Origin: Modestobacter sp. L9-4 | GTDB taxonomy: Bacteria > Actinomycetota > Actinomycetes > Mycobacteriales > Geodermatophilaceae | Assembly (NCBI RefSeq): GCF_019112525.1 | Contig: NZ_CP077800.1 | Span: 3,286,001 to 3,350,000 of the forward strand | Direction: 5' to 3' | Length of the DNA stretch: 64,000 bases | In this document: positions 10,176-33,439 of the stretch, piece after piece | Position numbering within the stretch: the stretch's first letter is position 1 | Layout: every line of letters starts with the position of its first letter | Program-made: the position numbers and the translations under genes | Notes under the pieces: generated by a model | The model's database searches: none | Told to the model about the DNA's origin: nothing | Seen by the model: only the letters and a program-made list of their open reading frames with translations

Positions 10176-11060
10176 ATGCGCGTCAACTTCGTCCTCTCCG
10201 AGGTGGCCGCCGGGCTGCGCCGGAACCTGACCATGACCGTGGCGATGATCCTGACCACCGGGATCTCGCTGGGCCTCATGGGCACGGGTCTGCTGATCGC
10301 CAACATGATCGGCGACATGCGGGAGATCTACTACGACAAGATCCAGGTCTCGATCTACCTCGCCGACGGCATCACCGATCCGCAGCGGGACGCGATCGCG
10401 GCCCAGCTGGGCGCCTCGCCGGAGGTCAAGGACTACGTCTACGAGTCCAAGGCCGACGCCTACCAGCGGTTCACCCAGCAGTTCCAGGAGCAGCCGGCGC
10501 TGATCGCCAACACGCCCGAGGACGCGCTGCCGGAGAGCTTCCGGGTGGAGCTGGTCAACCCCGAGCGCTACGAGGTGATCGCCCAGCAGTTCCCGGTCGG
10601 GCAGAACGGCATCGAGGACGTCCGCGACGAGGGCGACTTCCTCGACCGGTTGTTCAGCCTGCTCAACGGAGCCCGCAACGGGACGCTCGCGGTGGCCCTC
10701 GTGCAAGCCCTGGCCGCGTTGCTGCTGATCTCGAACACGATCCAGCTCGCGGCCTTCAACAGACGCAATGAAACGAACATCATGAGACTCGTCGGGGCCT
10801 CGCGCTGGTACACCCAGCTGCCGTTCATCCTCGAGGCCGCGCTCGCCGGGCTCGTGGGTGCGCTGCTGGCCATCGGCGGGCTGGTGCTGACCAAGGTGCT
10901 GTTCGTGGACAAGACCCTGGCCGGGCCGATCAAGGCGGGCATCATCCCGCCGGTCGACTGGTCGGCGATCATCGCGATCTCGCCGGTGATCGCCGCGGCC
11001 GGCGTCGGGTTGGCCGCGGTGGCCGCCTACGTCACGCTGCGGCTCTACGTCCGCCTGTAG
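10176..11060 (+). CDS. ftsX: Cell division protein FtsX
   Basis: Permease-like partner of FtsE, 294 residues. It has the FtsX layout: cytoplasmic N-terminus (MRVNFVLSEVAAGLRRNLTM), TM1 (about 22-45), a large extracellular domain (about 46-170) that in mycobacteria activates the peptidoglycan hydrolase RipC, then three membrane spans with the conserved cytoplasmic loop around FNRRNETNIMRLVGAS. ATG start with AGGGAA upstream. FtsEX does not transport a substrate; it couples division to septal wall hydrolysis. A strong terminator hairpin lies 14 bp after the stop. Confidence 0.96.
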   Translation: MRVNFVLSEVAAGLRRNLTMTVAMILTTGISLGLMGTGLLIANMIGDMREIYYDKIQVSIYLADGITDPQRDAIAAQLGASPEVKDYVYESKADAYQRFTQQFQEQPALIANTPEDALPESFRVELVNPERYEVIAQQFPVGQNGIEDVRDEGDFLDRLFSLLNGARNGTLAVALVQALAALLLISNTIQLAAFNRRNETNIMRLVGASRWYTQLPFILEAALAGLVGALLAIGGLVLTKVLFVDKTLAGPIKAGIIPPVDWSAIIAISPVIAAAGVGLAAVAAYVTLRLYVRL

Positions 11061-11164: not shown

Positions 11165-11221
11165 CGAGATCTGCGATCTCGTGGTCTCCGGCGCTGTGAC
11201 GCCCCGAGATCGCAGATCTCG
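11165..11221. repeat. 57-bp palindromic element, copy 1
   Basis: Left unit CGAGATCTGCGATCTCG (11165-11181), 23-bp spacer starting TGG and ending CCC, right unit CGAGATCGCAGATCTCG (11205-11221), the exact reverse complement of the left. Each 17-mer is itself an inverted repeat (CGAGATC around TGC or GCA). Start-to-start distance is 40 bp, the same as in the copies at 11330 and 12460. Confidence 0.9.
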
Positions 11222-11329
11222 TCTCGTCCGGGCGGCGTCGGCGCGGCGAGCGCCGCTGCCGCTCGCCGCGCCGCTGCCGCTCGCCGCGCCGCCGTGCTCC
11301 GGGCGGCCTGAACGTCTCCCCGTCGTCCG

Positions 11330-11386
11330 CGAGATCTGCGTACTCGTGGCTCCTGAGCTCGGGACGCCCCGGGATCGCAGATCTCG
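11330..11386. repeat. 57-bp palindromic element, copy 2
   Basis: Same design as copy 1: left unit CGAGATCTGCGTACTCG (two mismatches to the consensus), 23-bp spacer beginning TGG and ending CCC, right unit CGGGATCGCAGATCTCG (one mismatch). The 40-bp offset between units is kept even though the spacer sequence differs. Confidence 0.88.
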
Positions 11387-11473
11387 TTGCGCGAGTGGGA
11401 CGGCGGTGCGCCGGGGGCGTCGTCCGGCTGCGGCCCGCCGCCCTGGGGCCGGCCCGCCGCGAGTCCCCGGACG

Positions 11474-11527
11474 TGAGGTCCGCGTCGTCGGGGCTTCCGG
11501 GCGGGGGCCATGGGACCGCAGATGTCA
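11474..11527. repeat. Possible decayed palindromic element
   Basis: Left half TGAGGTCCGCGTCGTCG matches the consensus 17-mer at 11 of 17 positions and right half TGGGACCGCAGATGTCA at 12 of 17, with a 37-bp offset. It overlaps the last codons of the DUF559 gene. Could be chance resemblance. Confidence 0.3.
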
Positions 11528-12403
11528 GCGCAGCAGGGCGCGGGAGACGGTGGCGACGACGTCCTGCGGGCGGCCGAGGACGTCGGCGCTGGTGAAGCGG
11601 AGGACGGTCCAGCCCTCGAGCACCAGGCGGTTCTGCCGACGCAGGTCGTTGACGAAGACGCCGCGCTCCCGGTGGACCTCGCCGTCGAACTCCACGAGCA
11701 CCCTGCGGTCCGGCCAGGCCAGGTCGCCGAACCCGATGAGCCGCCCGCGGTCGTCGAGCGCGCGGAACTGCAGCGTCGGGCGGGGCAGCCCGGCCTCGTG
11801 CAGCAGCCACCGCAGCACCGACTCCATCGGAGAGTCGACGTTCGGGTCGGCGACCGCGAGCACCCGGCGGGCCCGCGCCGCGCCGCGTCCGGTGGGGCGG
11901 ACGGCCAGGGCGTGTTCCAGCTCCCCAGGCGTGCAGAGCACGTCGAGCAGCTGGTCGGCGACGGCGAGCAGCGCGGGCGGAGTGAGCGCACCGGCCAGGT
12001 CGCGCCACGTCCGGGCAGGGGTGGTCACCGGCATCCGCCAGCGCCGCTCCACGTCCTGAGCTGGCAGCGGTGACCGGTGCAGGCGGCGGTCGGGCCGGTT
12101 GCGGGCTCGCGATCCGGCGGGGACGGTCAGGTCGACGGGTGCGCCGGCCGACACGAGCGGTACCTCGACCCGCCACAGCGCCGCCGCGGTGAGGTGGCTG
12201 ACCACCGCGCCCGGCGGTGCGGTGAGCAGGACGGCGGGCAGCCGCGTGCGCAGATCGGCGGTGTCGGCGGAGGGCAGGTAGGTGTCCCGGGAGAGCCGGA
12301 CGACGTCCGGGTGCCGCAGTCCCCAGTCGCTGACGCCCGCCGCCAGCGCGGCAGCACGCGTGCTCGGGCCGGGCAGCGCAGACGGAGCAGGGCGACGGGG
12401 CAC
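11525..12403 (-). CDS. DUF559 (Vsr-like endonuclease fold) protein
   Basis: 292 residues. The N-terminal part (about 1-110) looks like the AbiEi-antitoxin-type winged-helix region common in actinobacterial DUF559 proteins (GLRHPDVVRLSRDTYLPS, HLTAAALWRVEVP). The C-terminal 100 residues form a PD-(D/E)xK nuclease-like domain: FGDLAWPDRRVLVEFDGEVH supplies the Asp and Glu, followed by NDLRRQNRLVLEGWTVLRFTSADVL. DUF559 is related to Vsr mismatch endonucleases; activity of this group is unproven. GTG start. The gene sits antisense between ftsX and smpB, a pair usually adjacent, and is bracketed by 57-bp palindromes, so it looks like an insertion. High Arg content, otherwise base use like its neighbours. 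Confidence 0.82.
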   Translation of the reverse strand: MPRRPAPSALPGPSTRAAALAAGVSDWGLRHPDVVRLSRDTYLPSADTADLRTRLPAVLLTAPPGAVVSHLTAAALWRVEVPLVSAGAPVDLTVPAGSRARNRPDRRLHRSPLPAQDVERRWRMPVTTPARTWRDLAGALTPPALLAVADQLLDVLCTPGELEHALAVRPTGRGAARARRVLAVADPNVDSPMESVLRWLLHEAGLPRPTLQFRALDDRGRLIGFGDLAWPDRRVLVEFDGEVHRERGVFVNDLRRQNRLVLEGWTVLRFTSADVLGRPQDVVATVSRALLR

Positions 12404-12459
12404 CGGCAGAGAGTGGCCTCCGGGCCGCCGTCCGCGCGGGCGTCGTCCACAGGGACTCG

Positions 12460-12516
12460 CGAGATCTGCGATCTCGTGGTCTCAGCGGTCCGGTGGCCAC
12501 GAGATCGCAGATCTCG
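12460..12516. repeat. 57-bp palindromic element, copy 3
   Basis: Left unit CGAGATCTGCGATCTCG (12460-12476) and right unit CGAGATCGCAGATCTCG (12500-12516), both perfect matches to copy 1. Spacer starts TGG and ends CCA, so the complementarity extends three bases inward. It lies 57 bp outside the start of the DUF559 gene, on the opposite side from copies 1 and 2. A short CGGGACGG direct repeat (about four copies) follows at 12520-12552. Confidence 0.9.
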
Positions 12517-12653
12517 CCGGCGGGACGGCGGGACGGCGGGACGGCGGGACGACCGCGGCGGGGTGGGGTGCGGCTGAGCGGGGGTGCCAGGGCGGACGCG
12601 GGCCACCGCGGAACCCGGTCGGCGGGGTGGCGGTGGCTCCGTAGACTGGGGGG

Positions 12654-13130
12654 ATGCCGCGGGAACAGGGGCGCAAGTTCATCGCCCAGAACAAGAAGGC
12701 GCGGCACGACTACTCGATCCTCGACACCTACGAGGTGGGCCTGGTGCTCACCGGCACCGAGGTCAAGAGCCTCCGGATGGGTCGTGCCTCGCTGGTCGAC
12801 GGGTTCGCCACCGTCGACGACGGTGAGGTCTGGCTTCAGCACGTGCACATCCCGGAGTACACCGAGGGCACGTGGACCAACCACACCCCGCGCCGCAAGC
12901 GCAAGGTGCTCATGCACCGGTACGAGATCGAGAAGCTGATCGGCAAGACCAAGGAGGGCGGGTTCACGCTCGTCCCGCTCGACCTGTACTTCAAGGACGG
13001 CAAGGTCAAGGCCACGCTCGCGCTGGCCAAGGGCAAGAAGAGCTACGACAAGCGCCAGGACCTGGCCGAGCGCGACTCCCGCCGGGAGATGGAACGCGCC
13101 TTCGGTCGCTACGTGAAGGGACGGCGCTGA
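12654..13130 (+). CDS. smpB: SsrA-binding protein SmpB
   Basis: 158 residues, full length. SmpB binds tmRNA and carries it to stalled ribosomes for trans-translation. Family segments are intact: [26 protein letters not shown] at the N-terminal OB-fold, [13 protein letters not shown], and the basic C-terminal tail ([31 protein letters not shown]) that occupies the decoding centre. ATG start. Its RNA partner is in the same window at 19873, about 6.7 kb downstream, not adjacent as in some genomes. Confidence 0.97.
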
Positions 13131-30889: not shown

Positions 30890-31891
30890 ATGGAGTTCCG
30901 ACACCTGGGCCACAGCGGCCTCAAGATCAGTGAGATCACCTACGGCAACTGGATCACCCACGGCGGTCAGGTCGAGGCCGACGCCGCGATCGCCTGCGTG
31001 CGGGCCGCGCTCGACGCCGGCATCACCACCTTCGACACCGCCGACGTCTACGCCGGGGGCCGCGCCGAGACGGTGCTGGGCCAGGCGCTGGCCGGCGAGC
31101 GCCGCAGCGGCATCGAGATCTTCAGCAAGGTCTACTGGCCGACCGGCCCCGGCGCCAACGACCGCGGCCTGTCCCGCAAGCACGTCCTGGAGTCGATCGA
31201 CGCCTCGCTGACGCGGCTGGGCACCGACTACCTGGACCTCTACCAGGCGCACCGCTACGACTACGAGACGCCGCTGGAGGAGACGATGCTCGCCTTCGCC
31301 GACGTCGTCCGCAGCGGCAAGGCCCTCTACATCGGCGTCTCCGAGTGGCGTGCCGACGAGATCCGCGCCGGCAAGGCGCTGGCCGACGAGCTGAAGATCC
31401 CGCTGGTGTCCAACCAGCCGCAGTACTCCGCGCTGCACCGGGTCATCGAGGCCGAGGTCATCCCGGCCAGCCGCGAGCTCGGCATCAGCCAGATCGTGTT
31501 CTCCCCGATCGCGCAGGGCGTGCTCACCGGCAAGTACCAGCCCGGTGCCGAGCCGCCGGCGGGCTCGCGGGCCACCGACACCAAGGGCGGCGGGGCGAAC
31601 ATGATCGCCCGGCTGATGGACGACGAGGTCCTCACCCGCGTGCAGGAGCTCAAGCCCATCGCCGACGAGCTGGGCATGTCGATGGCCACCCTGGCCGTCG
31701 CGTGGGTCCTGCAGGAGGAGAACGTGGCGGCGGCGATCATCGGCGCCAGTCGGCCCGAGCAGGTCACAGACAACGTCAAGGCCTCCGGTGTGACGCTGGA
31801 CGCCGAGGTCAAGGCCCGCATCGACGAGGTGCTGGCGCCGGTGGCGGTCACCGACCCGGAGCTGACCAAGAGCCCCGACCCGCGTCCCTGA
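30890..31891 (+). CDS. Aldo/keto reductase
   Basis: 333-residue NADPH-dependent oxidoreductase, (beta/alpha)8 barrel. The catalytic tetrad Asp49, Tyr54, Lys80, His121 is complete (FDTADVYAGG, EIFSKV, YQAHRYD). The C-terminal AAIIGASRPEQVTDNVKA is the coenzyme-binding end. It is closest in pattern to the Kv-beta/YghZ branch. Substrate unknown. ATG start. Divergent from the molybdopterin oxidoreductase gene and followed by a strong terminator. Confidence 0.93.
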   Translation: MEFRHLGHSGLKISEITYGNWITHGGQVEADAAIACVRAALDAGITTFDTADVYAGGRAETVLGQALAGERRSGIEIFSKVYWPTGPGANDRGLSRKHVLESIDASLTRLGTDYLDLYQAHRYDYETPLEETMLAFADVVRSGKALYIGVSEWRADEIRAGKALADELKIPLVSNQPQYSALHRVIEAEVIPASRELGISQIVFSPIAQGVLTGKYQPGAEPPAGSRATDTKGGGANMIARLMDDEVLTRVQELKPIADELGMSMATLAVAWVLQEENVAAAIIGASRPEQVTDNVKASGVTLDAEVKARIDEVLAPVAVTDPELTKSPDPRP

Positions 31892-31898
31892 CGCACCC

Positions 31899-31932
31899 GC
31901 GCCGGGGGTCCTCCGTGGAGGGCCCCCGGCGC
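31899..31932. terminator. Bidirectional terminator hairpin
   Basis: GCGCCGGGGG(T)CCTCC / GGAGG(G)CCCCCGGCGC hairpin between the convergent aldo/keto reductase (+) and GH63-like (-) genes. Confidence 0.75.
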
Positions 31933-31939
31933 CGTCGGG

Positions 31940-33439
31940 TCAGGGGGTGCGGGGGATCTCCGGGGTCGTCGCCGGGCCGCGGGTGCGGGTCGGGCGCCGG
32001 CCGGCCAGGTGGTCGGCGCGCTGGGCCGGGGTGATCCGCGGCAGCTCGCTGGTCAGCCAGCGCACCGGACGGCGCTGCGCCGGGCGCCGGGCGGCGAGGA
32101 AGTCGAGCGCGATCGCCGCCGTCCAGGACTGGTCGCGGCTGCCCAGGTTCTCCCCGGTGACCGGGTTGTAGTACTCGGCGAAGTCGCAGTCCACCAGCTG
32201 CGACAGCCCGGCCAGCCGCAGCTGGTTGGCCGCCTCGGGCTCGCCGGAGCGGTTCAGCGCCCAGGCCATCAACCAGTTGAGCACCGGCCACTGCGGCCCC
32301 CGCCAGTACGTCTGCGGGCGGAAGTCCGGCGAGGCCGGGGAGACCGAGGGCACGACCGGCCAGCGCAGCCGGGAGTTGCCGCACCAGCGCGGGCCCAGCA
32401 GCAGGTCGCGCTGCCGGCGGGTGAGCGCCTCGTCGCCACCGCAGATCAGCGGCGCGAACCCGGCGGCGCTCTCGACGTCCAGCCAGGAGCCGGTGCGCAG
32501 GTCCAGGTCGCGCGCCAGCCCGGTCTCGGGGTTGACCGAGCGCAGCACACCGGTGCGGAACCTGCGGGCGATGGCCCGGGACTGCTCCACCCCGCCGGAC
32601 GCCCCGCCGCCGATGCCGAGCTCCTCGCCCATGTCGGCGAGCAGGTCGCTGGCCGCGGCCAGCAGCGCGGAGACCAGCACGTCGCCCATCACGAAGTCAC
32701 CGGTCGCGCGGTAGACCGCGTCGTCGTAGCGGGCGCGCACCTTCTGCTCCAGCAGCCAGAGGTACTTCGCGTACTCGGCGTCGCTGGGCCGCTGGGAGGG
32801 GTCGGCGACGTGGGCCAAGTCCGCGCGCACGAACGGCGGCATGTCCGGCTGGGGGTGCACGGCGGCGTAGGCGGCGTCCCAGCGCGGGGAGTCGTCCATG
32901 CCGGACTCCCAGCCGTGGTGGATCTCCACCAGGCCGTAGGAGTACGGGTCGCGCGCGGTGGCGAGGTAGGAGTGCCAGGCCAGCCAGGAGTCGAAGGTCT
33001 CCCGCACGAACTCCTCGGCCAGCTCCAGGTCCGCCCCGCCCTTGCGCCGGGCGTCGTGCAGGATCCGGGACAGCGCGATCACGTGGATCGGCGGCTGGCA
33101 GATGCCCGAGGTGAGCACCCCGGCCGGGCGGGCCGCGGCCACCTGGGTGCGCCAGCGCTCCGGACCGGGGAAGTAGTCGCTGGGGGAGTGGAACAGGATG
33201 TGCGGGATCATCCCGGTCGCCCACTGCCCCGACAGCAGGCTGCGCAGCTCGCCCAGCGCGCGCGGCACCGAGACCGTGGCGATGCCCAGGGCCACGAACC
33301 CGGCGTCCCAGCTCCACATGTGCGGGTAGAGGGTCGGCGAGGCCACGGTGAACGCCCCGCGGTCGTTGGCCTTGAGCACGTACCCGGCGCGGCCGGACAT
33401 CAGCCCGATCTCGACCGCGCTGGGCTGGGAGACCGTCAT
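31940..33439 (-). CDS. GH63/MGH1-like hydrolase, probable glucosylglycerate hydrolase
   Basis: 499 residues, (alpha/alpha)6-barrel glycosidase. Family motifs: YPHMWSWDAGFVALG near the start, HHGWESGMDDSPRWD in the middle and QTYWRGPQWPVLNWLM late, which carry the acidic catalytic residues. This pattern matches the bacterial GH63 group that includes mannosylglycerate hydrolases and the actinobacterial glucosylglycerate hydrolase, which frees glucose and glycerate from the stored osmolyte. Specificity is inferred. ATG start; ribosome-binding purines are distant. An amino-acid permease follows the same direction upstream. Confidence 0.82.
   Translation of the reverse strand: MTVSQPSAVEIGLMSGRAGYVLKANDRGAFTVASPTLYPHMWSWDAGFVALGIATVSVPRALGELRSLLSGQWATGMIPHILFHSPSDYFPGPERWRTQVAAARPAGVLTSGICQPPIHVIALSRILHDARRKGGADLELAEEFVRETFDSWLAWHSYLATARDPYSYGLVEIHHGWESGMDDSPRWDAAYAAVHPQPDMPPFVRADLAHVADPSQRPSDAEYAKYLWLLEQKVRARYDDAVYRATGDFVMGDVLVSALLAAASDLLADMGEELGIGGGASGGVEQSRAIARRFRTGVLRSVNPETGLARDLDLRTGSWLDVESAAGFAPLICGGDEALTRRQRDLLLGPRWCGNSRLRWPVVPSVSPASPDFRPQTYWRGPQWPVLNWLMAWALNRSGEPEAANQLRLAGLSQLVDCDFAEYYNPVTGENLGSRDQSWTAAIALDFLAARRPAQRRPVRWLTSELPRITPAQRADHLAGRRPTRTRGPATTPEIPRTP

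Follow-up and report, generated by a model that had tools for sequence, protein, structure and literature searches.

The window, by which we mean the whole stretch of 64,000 nucleotides from Modestobacter sp. L9-4 that was analysed, contains on the minus strand at 11525-12403 an open reading frame for a 292 aa protein whose C-terminal part matches Pfam DUF559, a family of unknown function. The gene lies between two plus-strand neighbours that we take from their sequences to be ftsX on the left (10176-11060) and smpB on the right (12654-13130). Three copies of a 57-bp palindrome, to which no strand was assigned, were found around the gene, and the positions given for them in the preliminary description (starting at 11165, 11330 and 12460) were confirmed. 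Copy 3 (12460-12516) lies upstream of the DUF559 gene, 56 bp from its start codon, similar to the arrangement at other loci, and forms the upstream end of a unit composed of the gene and its flanking palindromes. A degraded fourth copy (11474-11527, likewise strandless) overlaps the stop codon of the gene and forms the downstream end of this unit; its match to model R1 is weak (25.4 bits, genome-wide E 0.08), and intact units have a full palindrome at about this position. Copy 1 (11165-11221), about 105 bp past ftsX, and copy 2 (11330-11386), in the gap between ftsX and the DUF559 gene, are extra copies. Short GC-rich repeated units were seen beside palindromes at 12519-12551 and 11229-11283. 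Elsewhere in the window, an imperfect palindrome of 60 bp (29-nt arms, 83%) is present at 31886-31945. It is unlike the 57-bp element and may represent a solo copy of a different type.

Matches to the 17-mer from which the element had been described were clearly beyond chance, with 10 matches in the window (at most 3 mismatches, both strands) compared to a mean of 0.36 and a maximum of 4 in 100 dinucleotide shuffles. The 17-mer is exact in both arms of copies 1 and 3, but copy 2 carries 2 mismatches in the left arm and 1 in the right arm, which the preliminary description did not mention. The fixed pitch of 40 bp holds in 21 of the 22 copies in the genome, one copy being 58 bp long. The conserved TGG and CCA or CCC borders attributed to the spacer are present; however, they belong to the arms, as the element in its full 57 bp is a single near-palindrome, in which arms of about 20 bp enclose a centre of 17 bp. 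The inverted repeat within the 17-mer is not well conserved: one inner pair is unpaired in the left arm of 9 and in the right arm of 11 of the 22 copies, so that this inner palindromy is not the defining feature of the element. Internal 17-mer hairpins were for the same reason, their lack of conservation across copies, rejected as a functional fold.

The protein encoded at 11525-12403 was modelled with AlphaFold2 with confidence (pLDDT 92). Its AbiEi profile matches fall within residues 42-175 and a Vsr-like nuclease part extends over about residues 190-292. The N-terminal half matched AbiEi profiles in all of 49 homologues (29 of the subfamily defined below and 20 others), and the sole Foldseek match below E 0.001 was Rv2827c, an AbiEi-type antitoxin (PDB 1zel, E 6e-4, TM-score 0.42). 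For the nuclease half, Foldseek matched 3r3p, the domain of the homing endonuclease I-Bth0305I, with a probability of 0.99-1.00 and a TM-score on the target of 0.67-0.72, yet with a weak E-value of 0.09-0.11, and the Vsr profile TIGR00632 was matched in 7 of the 49 homologues. Residues D227, E238, H244 and D253 are invariant among the 49 homologues and are, judged from this conservation, putative catalytic residues. Ten pairs of DUF559 genes gave dN/dS values of 0.22-0.36. According to the available text of PMC7319586, AbiEi and Rv2827c bind 23-bp inverted repeats and AbiEi proteins autoregulate via such repeats. The length of 23 bp is about that of one arm of the palindrome. The gene of the unit is not a DDE transposase by profile. 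A Y1/HUH transposase was searched for with PF01797, which had no match in the genome and matched in 5 of 14 control genomes in the same search, and a RAYT as partner of the element was rejected because none was found in the genome.

In the genome (4.22 Mb, one contig) we found 22 strong copies of the element, which match the model by construction because it was built from them, and three weak matches. Exactly 57 bp were counted in 21 of the strong copies. By crude gene calls no copy lies inside a gene, although three share two or three bases with the end of a gene, and some copies are merely 94-165 bp apart. Convergent gaps hold 12 of the copies, tandem gaps 8 and divergent gaps 2, compared to 21, 57 and 35, respectively, of the 113 other gaps longer than 60 bp in the same stretches, so that convergent gaps are enriched for copies (12/22 vs 21/113, p 0.0008). 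Long hairpins were predicted in all five copies that were folded. Compensatory changes between the arms of the 22 copies were no more frequent than in shuffles, which leaves a single-stranded DNA hairpin unsupported, and covariation was rejected as proof of a hairpin. In the sequences and flanks inspected, none of the 22 copies had a GTAG-type tag at one of its ends, and no target-site duplication was seen by eye at the copies, the flanks being too diverged at the available distances. Identity with an RNA family was rejected as well, as the search gave just weak matches to microRNA families, far under the gathering scores.

The preference for convergent gaps could indicate that the copies are operators or bidirectional terminators, in which case the protein would be a regulator or a domesticated factor, the copies would be its regulon or its terminators, and they would have spread by other means. 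The autoregulation described for AbiEi proteins and the occurrence of different hairpins in the same gap of different species are in line with this. Such a role fits poorly with only 2 of 22 copies in divergent gaps and with a palindrome directly past the stop codon of the gene as well. A selfish pair also better explains why, as reported below, there are so many palindrome types in parallel and why gene and element were gained or lost jointly more than once. We consider operators or terminators quite unlikely.

To relate the gene to the element, the window protein was searched over 112 genomes of the Geodermatophilaceae, a family of soil bacteria. The matches fell into two separate classes, with 65 matches of at least 210 bits (47-100% identity, 59 genomes), which we refer to as the subfamily, and others of at most 150 bits. 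Any match to the element was found in 58 of the 59 subfamily genomes and in 16 of the 53 others (Fisher 8e-16, uncorrected for kinship), a co-occurrence that is partly built in because the ends of the unit itself are among the elements counted. When the criterion was tightened, 53 of the 59 subfamily genomes exceeded the number of matches that their own unit ends can give, compared to 7 of the 53 genomes without the subfamily gene that had more than 4 strand matches. The search of the source genome and its relatives proposed earlier thus returned 22 strong copies here and the element in most family genomes that carry the subfamily. The proposed tie to DUF559 genes applies to the subfamily of the window gene, but not to the other five DUF559 genes of the genome, which do not lie beside this element. 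None of 24 genomes of the order outside the family had the element. A scan for the exact pattern over 84,980 species genomes, in which records near the genome of the window may be left out, detected 9 stretches, and each of them carries the label Modestobacter, Blastococcus or Geodermatophilus. Plasmids and phages gave weak element matches in 2 records each.

Palindromes at the gene ends were examined in all 65 subfamily loci and in 24 other DUF559 loci; one subfamily locus (L191) ends before the downstream palindrome and was excluded from end comparisons, and one other locus (L062) gave no alignment and was dropped. The two ends were regarded as matching when the similarity of their arms was at least 0.7, and 4498 background windows (for the 95th percentile), 120 background pairs and 13 smpB loci served as controls. 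Matching ends were found in 60 of 64 subfamily loci and in 20 of 24 other DUF559 loci, and in none of the 120 background pairs or the 13 smpB loci. Both flanks were above the 95th percentile of the background in 59/64 subfamily and 13/24 other loci, and matching ends together with both palindromes above this level were found in 57/64 and 11/24, respectively. The subfamily loci without matching ends are the window locus itself (L127), where the downstream end is degraded, and L132, L147 and L182. In most loci the centre of the upstream palindrome falls about 85 bp ahead of the start codon, and that of the downstream palindrome 25-45 bp past the stop codon. Based on shared flanking genes, the 65 subfamily loci represent about ten sites (10 groups, or 15 if both flanks are required). 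Eight of them are located between ftsX and smpB, and 40 at a single orthologous site, beside a gene that we take from its sequence to be purS.

The other DUF559 loci, 25 in number, were initially considered as negative controls, a use that was rejected when they were found to carry palindrome pairs of their own; the background windows, background pairs and smpB loci became the controls for that reason. Among the other five DUF559 genes of the genome, three clearly have their own palindrome pairs, a fourth has matching ends of which the upstream palindrome is weak, and the fifth gave no alignment. A second DUF559 gene of the genome (4060869-4061648) has a palindrome type of its own, about 70 bp long. 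When the genome was searched for its pattern, we detected six arm pairs of this type with the same 54-bp spacing, two of which flank the gene at 4060869-4061648, and a seventh arm pair was also seen; as a reversed control pattern gave 8 single matches (at most 2 mismatches), only pairs were counted. At this locus (L059, G000:C1:4060729-4061824) the arms read CCGAGTGGGCAGTTGC, and dispersed copies include those near 494187-494252 and 4077445-4077514. Outside the family, 30 DUF559 loci were obtained and 20 were compared end to end, which gave one clear matched pair: in L246, from another actinobacterial family, the DUF559 gene lies between two near-identical palindromes. In L252, also from another actinobacterial family, a 31-bp exact inverted repeat was seen to flank the DUF559 open reading frame (up -240, down 176).

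Protein and palindrome diverge together. For this comparison 62 of the 88 units with two readable ends were used, in which both palindromes scored at least 18 (53 subfamily, 9 other). Protein identity was correlated with palindrome similarity over the 62 units (Mantel r 0.69) and also within the 53 subfamily units (Mantel r 0.46), in both cases with 0 of 2000 permutations reaching the observed value. Residues 1-120, in the numbering of a homologue, tracked the palindrome best (r 0.535) and the nuclease part, 186-290, least (r 0.305). Two ends could be scored in 33 of the 40 units at the purS site, and the similarity of ends was 0.88 inside a unit compared to 0.60 across units (0/5000 permutations). 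In 19 of these 33 units the upstream end was matched best by the unit's own downstream end. An end was closer to the other end of its unit than to the corresponding end of the closest protein relative in just 15 units, with 5 being equal.

Within the genus, all six element-bearing genomes have a DUF559 gene with palindromes on both sides between ftsX and smpB. Of the 17 element-free genomes, 13 could be read at this site, one has its contig cut there and three were left out; all 13 readable congeners have ftsX next to smpB and no DUF559 gene between them. The six carriers are not one clade in the ftsX-smpB tree (p-AU 0.00025), in which well-supported branches force at least three changes, indicating that gene and element were gained or lost together more than once. 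Three of the six genus genes are partly deleted or frame-shifted, as the gene lacks about residues 149-254 through an internal deletion in G006, lacks about residues 54-77 in frame in G013 and is frame-shifted in G018. Both palindromes are retained at the deleted G006 gene and at the frame-shifted G018 gene. A unit in G115 (L149) is also placed at ftsX-smpB, in the opposite orientation and with a different palindrome type. Several element-free Modestobacter genomes (L091-L103) have other palindromes in the ftsX-smpB gap, for example with CGATCATGG...CCATGATCG arms, which may be terminators or a further palindrome family.

Solo copies were compared at orthologous sites in relatives. The element was found in none of 30 site comparisons with the element-free relatives G015 and G001, and in 13 of 17 orthologous loci of G010, 12 of 16 of G013 and 3 of 14 of G018, so that the element-present and element-absent alleles that had been suggested as a check both exist. 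The presence of the element in most orthologous loci of G010 and G013 indicates that its activity is low or past. At site 2733854 the element is absent in G001 and G015 and degraded in G013, and in the genome of the window its first three bases are, by our own gene calls, the stop codon of the left-hand gene. At the orthologous gaps neither a transposition product nor a target duplication nor an exact junction was demonstrated, and several of them hold other hairpins instead; exact junctions could not be defined because the intergenic flanks are too diverged. With regard to the copying mechanism that had been put forward, the two kinds of allele exist, but no copying event was seen and the junctions could not be read. 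In the orthologous gaps of 2322538, 2481451 and 3060779 (in G001, G010 and G018), different strong hairpins were observed at the same spot, as if palindromes replace one another at orthologous intergenic spots. We also compared 19 solo loci, picked by best R1 score and thereby favouring the palindrome type of the window, with units. The unit of the same genome ranked first in 2 of 15, four genomes having no scorable unit, and the test gives no support for a strict one-to-one match of solo copies and units; some genomes clearly contain several palindrome types.

These data bear on whether the DUF559 gene and the palindromes are simply old neighbours that were inherited vertically, sharing ancestry without a common function. 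The location of 40 of 65 units at one orthologous site, and of most solo sites in common with the two nearest relatives, would be expected from such a history. It is nevertheless a very improbable explanation, since at one and the same site the ends match far better within a unit than between units, the carriers in the genus do not form one clade, and matched ends were not found in any background pair.

Some of the same observations would be compatible with a homing-type element, whose nuclease would cut alleles without the unit, the unit being copied in by repair, and whose solo palindromes would be scars comparable to solo LTRs, formed by recombination between the two flanking palindromes with loss of the gene. 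The resemblance of the nuclease half to the Vsr-like I-Bth0305I, the retention of both palindromes at the damaged genes of G006 and G018, and the location of many units at orthologous sites can be read in this way. However, homing enzymes are known to recognise the empty site, not the ends of the element, whereas here the palindrome sequence tracks the protein sequence. In addition, 22 solo or extra copies versus one unit, some of them as closely spaced as mentioned above, are unexpected from deletion alone. We regard homing as unlikely.

We propose instead that the DUF559 gene, together with the palindrome on either side of it, constitutes a selfish mobile unit of about 1.05 kb, which would be similar to REP/RAYT systems in its behaviour while being built on a non-HUH nuclease, and that the scattered 57-bp copies are its non-autonomous offspring. 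We consider this reading probable, if far from secure. Counting against it are the elements in 16 of the 53 genomes without the subfamily gene (several in 7 of them), the poor fit of solo copies to the unit of their own genome, the damage to three of the six genus genes and the weak E-value of the match to the homing endonuclease domain. The idea of a palindrome family with a DUF559 protein as its partner, put forward in the preliminary description, was supported by a co-occurrence in excess of the unit's own ends, by matching palindromes at about ten sites and the joint divergence of protein and palindrome, and by gene and solo copies that come and go together in a genus where the carriers are not one clade. 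In the proposed mechanism, the AbiEi-like half would recognise the palindrome arms as two inverted sites, and the Vsr-like nuclease half would then cut or nick at the palindrome. Recognition of double-stranded DNA by the AbiEi-like half seems likelier than hairpin recognition, as changes in the arms are not compensated beyond chance. The cut or nick could mobilise either the entire unit or just one palindrome, which would insert into intergenic DNA, more often than expected between convergent genes, and protein and palindromes would shift their specificity jointly, giving rise to many parallel families. While the architecture, the matched ends, the joint divergence, the co-occurrence, the empty sites and the dispersed copies are observed, binding and cleavage of the palindrome and a causal role of the protein in copying and movement are what we infer.

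More generally, we lean slightly towards the view that AbiEi-DUF559 nucleases are a new class of site-specific mobilising enzymes for type-specific palindromes, with a REP/RAYT-like way of life that arose independently from an unrelated nuclease binding double-stranded DNA, with many co-evolving families in the Geodermatophilaceae and at least one matched pair from a different family of actinobacteria. The type of enzyme at the core of the unit is not known to move DNA, and in the open-licence literature we found no prior account of a DUF559-palindrome system. If the proposal is true, it would represent a second, unrelated solution to the task of REP/RAYT without an HUH enzyme, and a mobile element would have recruited an antitoxin-type DNA-binding domain for recognition. 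As each gene carries a putative binding site at both ends, the protein-palindrome pairs would form a natural data set for a DNA-recognition code.

Several known systems share features with the unit. MITEs are short non-autonomous copies that share their ends with a gene-bearing parent IS, and the short copies described here likewise share the ends of a gene-bearing unit. In contrast to MITEs, the gene of the unit is by profile not of the DDE type, target duplications were not seen at the rather diverged flanks, and the ends are full palindromes instead of simple terminal inverted repeats. The antitoxins of the AbiE type IV toxin-antitoxin systems resemble the N-terminal half in all homologues studied, and Rv2827c is the best fold match; the DUF559 protein differs by an added nuclease domain, and at the window locus, with ftsX and smpB as neighbours, there is no AbiEii (DUF1814) toxin gene. 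With Vsr-like nucleases, including I-Bth0305I, the protein shares the predicted fold of the catalytic half, at a weak E-value, and conserved polar residues, but here the nuclease is joined to a DNA-binding half and associated with a family of palindromes. No intron or intein was noticed at the DUF559 loci. REP/RAYT systems have a Y1/HUH transposase and a GTAG-type tag, whereas the window element has an AbiEi-like and Vsr-like partner, no Y1 match and no tag. The window element is also longer, at 57 bp compared to the 20-40 bp given for REPs in the available text of PMC3733652, and has no sign of selection on hairpin pairing. There are also likenesses to these systems, also called REPtrons: a gene lies between two matching palindromes, as in nearly all subfamily loci, many extragenic copies are dispersed (for RAYTs in the available text of PMC2817692), and protein and palindrome co-diverge (likewise for RAYTs in that of PMC8266576).
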